From the IMG/VR virus record IMGVR_UViG_3300037258_000107, positions 1 through 40,454 of that record: a stretch of 40,454 bases of DNA. One strand, given 5' to 3'. Each line of letters starts with the position of its first letter. Position 1 is the first letter of the stretch. The notes below the pieces were generated by a model. It was not told the DNA's origin. It made no database searches and saw only the letters and a list, made by a program, of their open reading frames with translations. A program made the position numbers and the translations under genes. Source of the stretch: a virus. Shown in pieces: positions 22,755 through 26,219 of this stretch.

Positions 22755-23410
22755 ACCTTCACCACGTTTTGCGTCGCCTGCACGGTGCCGCCGCCGCCGC
22801 CGACGACCGGGTCCCCGTCCATTACCACGCGCTTGCCCGCCGGACCCAGCACGACGGTGCCGGGATTGTTCAGGGTGACGTTGCCGCCCCCCAGGTTCAG
22901 GGTGACGTTGCCGCCGTTCATGTTCAGCGTCACCGGCATGGTGCCACCCGCTTTGTTGCTGGCGGTCAGATTGCTGCAGTCCATCAAGATGAAGGGTTCG
23001 CCGTTGCACTCAATTTCCCAGCCCGCGCCCTTCTTTGCCCAAATCCACTTACCGGCCGCGCCGTTTTCACCGTTGGCGTCATGGATGGCGGTTTCGCCAT
23101 CATTGGCCAGTGGCATGCGCGCGGTCTGATTCCCAGTGGCGACGACGATCCCCCAGGTCCGTTCGGCGTTCAGGAAGATGATCGCGCAATCGGAATTCTT
23201 CGGGGCCCGCGATACGAAACCGAATTCCGCCAGGCGCGGCAAGTTCATCAGTTCCACGGCGCTGACCTGGACCTGAATCATCTGGACAGGGCCGTGGTCG
23301 TTATTGATCACCATCTGGATGCGCCCGCGGCCCAGCATCATCTTCAGGCCGTTCAGCGACCTACTGACACCTTGGCGCAAGGCCCGGAAGTGTTCTTCCC
23401 AGCCGATCAT
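22751..23410 (-). CDS. Mu gp45-like baseplate spike protein
   Basis: 219 residues. The first 130 residues form an OB-like domain (RGRIQMVINNDHGPVQMIQV, NLPRLAEFGFVSRAPKNSD, AIIFLNAERTWGIVVATGNQ). The C-terminus is a repetitive beta-helix (GGTMPVTLNMNGGNVTLNLG, then GNVTLNNPGTVVLG), as in membrane-piercing spikes, ending in a Gly-rich turn (GDPVVGGGGGTVQATQ). It is the central needle that punctures the outer membrane on sheath contraction. Overlaps both neighbours by 4 bases. Confidence 0.9.
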   Translation of the reverse strand: MIGWEEHFRALRQGVSRSLNGLKMMLGRGRIQMVINNDHGPVQMIQVQVSAVELMNLPRLAEFGFVSRAPKNSDCAIIFLNAERTWGIVVATGNQTARMPLANDGETAIHDANGENGAAGKWIWAKKGAGWEIECNGEPFILMDCSNLTASNKAGGTMPVTLNMNGGNVTLNLGGGNVTLNNPGTVVLGPAGKRVVMDGDPVVGGGGGTVQATQNVVKV

Positions 23411-24486
23411 GGCGCGGTCGCCGCCATTACGTCGCCAGGTAGCGGCTGCAGCAGGATCGGTTCCGGCAGGAAGGCCGCCTGGGGCATCGCCTGGATGATC
23501 GCGGTCGTGCCGGTCAGCCGGTCACGCTTAAAGGTCACCTGGCTGATGATCCAGATCAGGCCGTCGGGCAATTTCAGCGCGGGCGCGTCAATCGGGATGA
23601 TGGCGTTCGGCGTCCACAATTTGCCGTCGGTGTCGCGCCAGCTGTCGACCGTGGCGATGACGACGTTAGACCGGCCAGCCCGCCGGGCTGCTTCCCAGAT
23701 CGCGCGCTTCTTCGCCACGTCATTGCCCAGCGCGCCGCCCTCGCTGATGATCGTGCGCAGCCGGTGGCGCTTCACACCCGGGTCGGTCGTGGTGGCCAGC
23801 AGATTGCCGCCATTGCCCAAGTCGGACAGCGTATCCACCGCGGTAATGAAGGCTTCGTAATCGCTGAACCGCTGGTCCATCGAATAGTCGGCGTCGGCAT
23901 CCTGGATATTCTCGCCCTGCTTCATGCCTGAACCCATGATGTCGCTGCCCGCCTGGGCCAGCACCAGGTTGCCGTTCGGCAGGTCATAGATCAGCAGGCC
24001 GCGAAACCGCGCCAGCCGTTCGATGATCGAATAGGCGCTTTCGCCAATGGTCAGATTGAACTGGGGGATCGGCGGACCCGTGTCGACCTGGCCTTCGACG
24101 GTGATCCCATAAGGCTGCAGCAGCTTGTTCGCAATTTCCAGGACCGATGACCCGTTGATCTGGCCGCCCGGCCATTCGGCGCTGCAGTCGACGGCATCCT
24201 GAGACTTCGACCGGCCCGAGTATCCGACGAAGTGATTCTTCTTCCCGCGGATCGAAGGCTTCAGCCGGTCGACCCAGCCGGTCATCACCAGATCGCGGCC
24301 GATCTGGACCGTGCAGGGATCGCCAGGCTGCAGGATCACGCTACTGCTGGTTTCGGAGAATTTTTCGGTGGCCCTGATGTTGAAAAGCCAGGGGCAAACT
24401 TCAATACCCACCGCGACTTCGATGTCTTCCCAGCCCCCCAGGGTCTGGCCGCCGGAAGTGATTGTCAGGTCGCCATCGTCCGCCAT
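23407..24486 (-). CDS. Mu gp44/gpP-like baseplate hub protein
   Basis: 359 residues: MADDGDLTITSGGQTLGGWE start, VCPWLFNIRATEKF, PGDPCTVQIGRDLVMTGWVD, FVGYSGRSKSQDAVDCSAEW, LLQPYGITVEGQVDTG, IIERLARFRGLLIYDLPNG, and C-terminal VDSWRDTDGKLWTPNAII. This is the Mu P / late-control-D type hub (T4 gp27-like) that holds the spike. Its ribosome site AAGAAGG lies inside a small hairpin (24491-24506), and a 278-base non-coding gap precedes it, so translation may be controlled there. Confidence 0.9.
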   Translation of the reverse strand: MADDGDLTITSGGQTLGGWEDIEVAVGIEVCPWLFNIRATEKFSETSSSVILQPGDPCTVQIGRDLVMTGWVDRLKPSIRGKKNHFVGYSGRSKSQDAVDCSAEWPGGQINGSSVLEIANKLLQPYGITVEGQVDTGPPIPQFNLTIGESAYSIIERLARFRGLLIYDLPNGNLVLAQAGSDIMGSGMKQGENIQDADADYSMDQRFSDYEAFITAVDTLSDLGNGGNLLATTTDPGVKRHRLRTIISEGGALGNDVAKKRAIWEAARRAGRSNVVIATVDSWRDTDGKLWTPNAIIPIDAPALKLPDGLIWIISQVTFKRDRLTGTTAIIQAMPQAAFLPEPILLQPLPGDVMAATAP

Positions 24487-24490
24487 GCGA

Positions 24491-24506
24491 CCTTCTTACA
24501 GGAAGG
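24491..24506 (-). promoter_or_regulatory. Hairpin covering the ribosome-binding site of the gp44-like gene
   Basis: On the minus strand CCTTC (24506-24502) pairs with GAAGG (24495-24491) around CTGTAA. GAAGG is the core of the Shine-Dalgarno and lies 4 bases before ATG 24486. When folded, initiation would be hindered; all other tail genes here lack such a hairpin at the start because they overlap their neighbours. Pairing is seen; control is inferred. Confidence 0.45.
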
Positions 24507-24645
24507 CCCCGGCAGCGCGCCACCCGCCGGGATTTGTCAAAGGCATCTATGCCCAAGACGGCGGGGCCTTCGACCTTTCACGACTCGCTGGCTAAGACAG
24601 GTCCGGGCCCATCTGTTTGATCCAGCACGACAGCCAATAAGACCG

Positions 24646-24720
24646 GGCGCGCCCGTTGGTATTTCGGCGGTACTTTCCTGGTCGCCCAGGTCACAATCTT
24701 TAAGCTACGGGCTATGCGCC
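24646..24720 (-). ncRNA. Candidate structured RNA element (11-bp closing stem)
   Basis: Minus strand GGCGC-ATA-GCCCGT (24720-24707) pairs with ACGGGC-GCGCC (24656-24646), leaving ATA bulged. The enclosed 50 nt hold CCTGG-GCGA-CCAGG (24690-24677). Length of 75 nt recalls a tRNA, but there is no D-arm/anticodon/T-arm set with U33, GG or TTCRA. It may be an independent small RNA or part of a leader for the baseplate genes. Confidence 0.35.
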
Positions 24721-24764
24721 CGGCAGGACTTCGACCTGCATCCCCGCGCTGTAACAATTACAGC

Positions 24765-26219
24765 TTAAGACGATAGCGCCTTGAAGGACAAGGGCATGAA
24801 GGCGGGATGGCGGGCATCAGCCAGCCGGACCAGTTCGTCTGCGCGGGTGCTGTCCTGGTAAATCCGCTGCGCGGCCACCAGGGAAACCAGGCTGCCCGGG
24901 AAGGTGAACCGCTGCATGGGCGGCAGCTGGGCCCCGCGGCCGTCCAGGATCGCCGACACGGTCGCCTTCGCGCTGACCAGGGCGTCATAACTGGCATCAT
25001 CGCCCGCATCACCCGCGATCACTGATTCGGTGTCCAGCAGGGTGCAGACGTTTAGGCGCAGGGTGTTGGCGTCGTTTTCAGACTGGGGCTGATACTGATC
25101 GGTGACCCTGACCAGGGCAGCCAGCGCGGTGCGGCGCAGCAGATTTCCCATCGCGGTCTGCATGGTCGCCGCCGCCTGGCCGATGGTCGAAGACCCGGTC
25201 GGGGCCGCCGGGTAAAAGTTCGCCAGCATCGTGAACAGCCGGATGCCGTCCGACGGGTTCACAATCGACGCGACCAGGGCCGCAGCAGCCGCCTGGGCGG
25301 CCGGTGGCGGCCCGCTGGGTTCGGTAATGCTGGCGGCCGTGATCAAGGCGTCACCAGCCTGGGTGACAGCCGCGCGTTCCTGGGTGGCCGTAAAGATCAG
25401 GTCTTCCATGGTCGGCGGCATGGGATTCGTGGACAGGCCGGTATTGAAGCCCGCCAGGGCCCCGTTGAAGAACCGGCCGAAGTTGCCCGGCAGGCTGGCG
25501 GCCAGGTTGAAGATGCCGGTGGCGTCGGTCGCGGCCTGGGTCAAAAGCCCGACCCAGCTGGTCACAGTGCCGACCGCCATGTCGACGACAAAGGACCCCA
25601 GGGCGACCCCGGGGGTCACCGCGGTGATGAAGTCCTGGCTGGCCGCGCTGTCGATCCCGTCGGCTGCGCTATCCATGTCGTCATCTTGGCTGGTGCTGGC
25701 AGCCGGAAAGGTGCGGTCGCCGCTGTCATAACAGGCCAGGGTGAATTCGGCGAAGGTCGCGCCGTCCAGGCGCTGGGTCACGATCAGCCCTTCTTCCGGG
25801 ATGCTGACCTGCAGGCGGCCCAGCGTGGGATGGACCAGGGTTCCGGCCCCATTGGCTTCGGCCGCGCCGATCAGCTGCTGAATCTGGTCGCTGACATCGC
25901 CGCCGCCATAGACAAGCGAATCGGTGATCATGAAGCCCTGGATGCTGAACTTTCTGGTCGCGCGGCCCAGGTCTTCCGGCCAGGGCGTGTCCCGGAACGG
26001 ATATTCATGCAGCGCGATGGATCGACCGAATCGGCCTTCGCACGTCGTCACGCCGAATGGCACGCCCCGGAAGCTGGCGGCCTGCAGCAGGGACAGGAAC
26101 TGGGGATAAGTCCCATTGAAGTTCGCCGGGACCGGCAGATCGCCCAGGCCGCCGATGAACCCGTCGACCAGGTTTTCGGCGTCGCTGATGCCTCGCGTGA
26201 TGCCGCTGATCAGGCTCAT
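24765..26219 (-). CDS. Mu gp43/gpN-like tail protein (DNA-circularisation N-terminal domain)
   Basis: 484 residues. The N-terminal region FNGTYPQFLSLLQAASFRGV ... GRSIALHEYPFRDTPWPEDL, GRATRKFSIQGFMITD, HPTLGRLQVSIPEEGLIV is the DNA_circ_N/Mu gpN pattern. The family name is historical; in Mu-type tails the protein sits between tape measure and hub. The remaining long helical Ala-rich part ends in YQDSTRADELVRLADARHPA, a LysM-like/hub-binding tail in relatives. Stop TAA is directly followed by the first hairpin of the structured gap. Overlaps the tape measure by 4 bases. Confidence 0.88.
   Translation of the reverse strand: MSLISGITRGISDAENLVDGFIGGLGDLPVPANFNGTYPQFLSLLQAASFRGVPFGVTTCEGRFGRSIALHEYPFRDTPWPEDLGRATRKFSIQGFMITDSLVYGGGDVSDQIQQLIGAAEANGAGTLVHPTLGRLQVSIPEEGLIVTQRLDGATFAEFTLACYDSGDRTFPAASTSQDDDMDSAADGIDSAASQDFITAVTPGVALGSFVVDMAVGTVTSWVGLLTQAATDATGIFNLAASLPGNFGRFFNGALAGFNTGLSTNPMPPTMEDLIFTATQERAAVTQAGDALITAASITEPSGPPPAAQAAAAALVASIVNPSDGIRLFTMLANFYPAAPTGSSTIGQAAATMQTAMGNLLRRTALAALVRVTDQYQPQSENDANTLRLNVCTLLDTESVIAGDAGDDASYDALVSAKATVSAILDGRGAQLPPMQRFTFPGSLVSLVAAQRIYQDSTRADELVRLADARHPAFMPLSFKALSS

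Follow-up and report, generated by a model that had tools for sequence, protein, structure and literature searches.

The window analyzed in this study, a stretch of viral DNA of 40,454 nucleotides, carries on its minus strand a Mu-type contractile-tail operon in which the gp43-like and gp44-like genes are separated by an intergenic gap of 278 bp (24487-24764, minus strand). The gp43-like tail protein, encoded at 24765-26219 on the minus strand, contains a Pfam DNA_circ_N domain and carries the PHROG annotation 'baseplate hub'; the gp44/GpP-like baseplate hub protein is encoded on the same strand at 23407-24486. The length of the gap, the minus-strand genes on both of its sides and the close spacing of the remaining tail genes were all found as the original prediction had described them. 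The GC content of the gap (0.60-0.61) was near that of the genome (0.634). At the gp44 end, the motif AAGAAGG (24491-24497, minus strand), which reads as the likely Shine-Dalgarno sequence of gp44, is kept beside the gp44 start codon. Additionally, CTGTAA occurs at 24758-24763 and at 24496-24501 (minus strand), and these copies could represent the left and right members of a weak direct repeat flanking an insert, a 6-bp repeat being too short as proof of an insertion mechanism. Elsewhere in the window, genes for a DnaB-like helicase and an MT-A70 adenine methyltransferase-like protein were found on the minus strand between 2013 and 4174.

Comparison with the closest relative (L002), whose gp44 is 69-70% identical, showed that gp43 and gp44 lie only 13 nt apart there, so that the gap of this phage is about 265 bp longer and represents an insertion relative to that genome. 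A first scan of genome contigs yielded no relative. Further relatives were gathered by means of conserved gp44 motifs, and the junction was measured in the 108 in which both genes were located. It was at most 74 nt long in 83 of the 108 relatives, 105 nt in one and 257-1446 nt in the remaining 24. Among named phages with this tail, the junction measured 11 nt in phiKM1 and -4 nt in both BZS1 and phiNP. Every one of the 24 long junctions contained an antisense ORF of 78-232 aa, which spanned 77-98% of the gap in most of them; two junctions (L067 and L070) held a sense ORF in addition, and in another (L073) the antisense ORF extended past the gp43 stop. The cargo ORFs mostly had an N-terminal hydrophobic, signal-peptide-like or transmembrane segment, one group combined a zinc ribbon with a transmembrane segment, and most of the cargo was more AT-rich than its own phage. 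These results indicated that the gp43/gp44 junction is, in the relatives, a recurrent cargo slot for small reverse-facing accessory genes.

The inverted repeats that had drawn attention to the gap were indeed present. In particular, we found a perfect 7-bp hairpin (GCUGUAA-UUG-UUACAGC; 24748-24764, minus strand) adjoining the gp43 stop, a CCUGG-GCGA-CCAGG hairpin and a pairing of 24643-24650 with 24716-24723 within the 75-nt stem that had been proposed, and several GC-rich hairpins were predicted in the gap. However, this structure did not rise above chance level. Folded as a whole, the gap had a predicted energy of -116.7 kcal/mol and a z-score of -1.62, and 10 of 200 shuffled sequences folded equally well; when the genome was divided into 145 non-overlapping windows of 278 nt on the same strand, 29 equalled or undercut the gap in z-score and 39 did so in energy. 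The motif reported to occur twice was likewise found in two copies, AGGTCGAAG at 24729-24737 and at 24568-24576 on the minus strand (plus-strand CTTCGACCT at 24568 and 24729), but their interpretation as a duplicated module was unsupported because such elements are common: perfect 7-bp hairpins number 39 in the whole window, including the one beside gp43, AGGTCGAAG occurs eight times in it, and a repeated 9-mer is present in 49% of 278-nt windows. Repeats and hairpins of this kind are as expected in a GC-rich genome. A scan of the gap against Rfam gave no family at its gathering score, no tRNA or tmRNA gene was called, and no promoter-like or terminator-like site was found within the gap. Together with the ordinary folding, these findings leave the phage small RNA that had been suggested without positive support. 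Among the papers searched, none described an RNA at the gp43/gp44 junction, and the gap, striking as it is, constitutes no evidence for a new RNA.

We found no homologue of the insert by BLAST in phages and plasmids or by a search for its exact pieces in IMG/VR, where the few matches shared nothing beyond the queried word, came without tRNAs or tail genes, and appear fortuitous. BLAST of the insert against 385 genomes gave eight matches; three were GC-rich chance matches, and the other five were tRNA 3' halves, all falling on 24701-24739. This interval (minus strand) has the appearance of a degenerate permuted-tRNA-like segment. Read from 5' to 3' on the minus strand, it begins with a T-arm-like GCAGG-UCGAAGU-CCUGC, continues with an acceptor-like hairpin, CGGGC-GCAUA-GCCCG, whose helix is closed the 'wrong' way round, and ends with UAGCUUA, which resembles the start of a D arm. 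A covariance model (R1), for which 30 ordinary tRNAs had been put into the permuted order, ranked the segment first in the window with 20.6 bits (E 1.3e-5), followed by a match of 12.5 bits. The same model reached at most 14.3 bits on 99 related tail loci (628 kb), and the tRNA modules of YrlA mostly scored 26-47 bits. The resemblance to a tRNA is thus probably more than chance, bearing in mind that R1 was chosen after the sequence had been seen. When 57 unselected tRNAs were used, the BLAST similarity of the gap was unremarkable.

The segment was compared with YrlA (Rfam RF02553), a bacterial Y RNA that includes a permuted tRNA-like module. The order of the T arm, the acceptor hairpin and UAGCU over 39 nt was the same in both, and in both the acceptor strands are joined by a short loop, unlike in tandem tRNAs; a tandem tRNA junction was rejected for the segment, whose 5-nt loop is too short and which forms no cloverleaf. 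YrlA was also the top-scoring Rfam match at the segment, although its 14.6 bits (E 4.3, a chance value) lie far from the gathering score of 69. In contrast to YrlA, the T loop (UCGAAGU) does not follow the UUCRA pattern, 24701-24739 lacks a D stem, and neither a terminal Y stem nor the Ro60-binding YrlA stem motif was detected: strands similar to GGCGAAUGC/CUUGUCGCC were absent from the surroundings of the module, and constrained folds showed none. The acceptor hairpin had a probability of about 0.05 in the RNA of the gap. De-permuted constructs of the segment gave no ARAGORN call and no cloverleaf, whereas 31 of 31 comparison YrlA-type sites were called; these calls were used solely for this contrast and were dropped as complete permuted tRNAs in phages, since the same procedure in a wider scan gave many different anticodons per site. 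A Ro60 (TROVE) gene is a usual, not universal, companion of YrlA in the same element; no such gene (PF05731) was present in the whole window, as against five of the six phage records found with permuted modules. The group II intron domain model RF02003 also gave a partial match to 24701-24739 (13.9 bits), which remained below its gathering score of 49 at an E of 0.91, and the gap is far shorter than a group II intron. The YrlA-type permuted RNAs found by pattern were located in the IMG/VR phage contigs L245, L247, L249, L258, L277 and L282, and in the record of L247 a TROVE/Ro60 gene lies immediately beside the permuted RNA. A Sphingomonadaceae MAG with a relative of this phage tail (L145) contained at least four tandem YrlA copies, one of them above the gathering score. 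Additionally, a prophage (G397, the record of L007) showed T-arm matches at both of its ends (3-19 and 55412-55428), as expected of tRNA attachment sites.

An occupied slot usually holds an antisense gene, and the gap of this phage could by analogy hold a gene for a small protein that has escaped recognition, with the plus strand as its likeliest location and perhaps an assembly error that broke it. One plus frame, and no other frame, is free of stops through the whole gap. However, this open frame contains no ATG, GTG or TTG inside the gap and has the worst codon score of all (-0.70); the codon signal of phage genes was absent from every frame, the best reaching -0.19 bits per codon compared with a mean of +0.53 in true frames. 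The antisense ORFs of the gap reach at most 36 aa, its frames gave nothing significant against Pfam or PHROG, and neither HMM nor tblastn searches gave a convincing match to a remnant of the antisense cargo proteins. We consider an encoded protein quite unlikely. A leader or attenuator tuning gp44 and the downstream baseplate genes, as also proposed for the hub, would suit a position directly upstream of gp44 and the predicted GC-rich hairpins. It is nevertheless very improbable: relative to shuffles, the gap folds no better than a fifth of the windows of the genome, it contains no terminator-like site, and the junctions of the relatives are nearly empty or are filled with unrelated antisense genes.

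More can be said for the possibility that the insert bears a divergent or degenerate YrlA-type tRNA-mimic RNA, or the relic of one, in which a T arm, an acceptor hairpin and the beginning of a D arm follow one another in circularly permuted order. The first rank under R1 above all related tail loci, the tRNA 3' halves that converge on one interval, the short acceptor loop and the top place of YrlA among Rfam matches, even at a chance E-value, are consistent with such an RNA. Against these stand the low YrlA score, the deviating T loop, the missing D stem, Y stem and stem motif, the rarely formed acceptor hairpin, the silence of ARAGORN and the lack of a TROVE/Ro60 gene; moreover, R1 was selected with the sequence in view, and unselected tRNAs brought out nothing unusual. 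We regard this origin as conceivable, if doubtful, and a functional tRNA-mimic RNA as unlikely. Its most specific form, a minimal divergent Y-RNA-like tRNA mimic that sits in the slot without a Ro60 of its own and acts via a host Ro60 or RNase, is hardly to be expected.

Among the three options originally offered, the best fit is the relic of an inserted element because the nearest relative lacks the insert and the junction has been recurrently invaded; the small RNA and the leader were unsupported. We consider it rather probable that the gap is an accessory insert of about 265 bp, presumably a decayed or non-coding occupant of the accessory-gene slot. A slot for small moron-like genes at the gp43/gp44 junction would have taken up the additional DNA, and its occupant would most likely be a decayed or non-coding remnant with neither a recognisable gene nor a demonstrable RNA structure. 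Such an insert would be co-transcribed with the late tail genes and may be tolerated because gp44 appears to keep its own ribosome-binding site, AAGAAGG. The decay of former cargo is an inference, no remains of an earlier antisense gene having been identified in the gap; the co-transcription and the lack of function are likewise inferred. Two observations run counter to decayed cargo: the GC content of the gap is close to that of the genome, unlike the mostly AT-richer cargo of the relatives, and the permuted-tRNA-like segment is not explained by the simple decay of a protein gene.

The insert shares with the moron and other accessory cargo genes of phage structural operons its place between two tail genes and its absence from a close relative, with 278 nt at a conserved gene junction compared with 13 nt in L002, and the same junction holds reverse-oriented genes in other phages. 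It differs from them in that no recognisable gene, promoter or terminator was found, and thus no autonomous gene of the moron type with a promoter and terminator of its own. In phages with this type of tail, reverse-facing accessory genes from uncharacterised families have repeatedly landed at the gp43/gp44 junction, and their products are often secreted or membrane proteins. Genes by which these phages interact with their hosts can be sought there. Phage workers may find more of interest in this slot and its gene families than in the supposed RNA.

Several features of the cargo in the relatives were observed in addition. A small protein family with the pattern DGY(L/M/V)GG...C...G, followed further along by a conserved P/T-(A/T)S(F/Y).C motif, recurs at the junction in antisense orientation (L050, L056-L058, L069, L070, L073, L100 and L113); its representative from L073 matched nothing in Pfam or PHROG. 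In L056, L057, L069, L080, L089 and L113, cargo proteins from different families share the C-terminal residues TLPAG (or TLPPG) beside the gp43 stop, as though recombination in the tail end exchanged the cargo or the tail end itself had a function. We also found, at L067:2423-3001, an antisense membrane ORF accompanied by a sense ORF of 99 aa that looks ferritin-like by eye.
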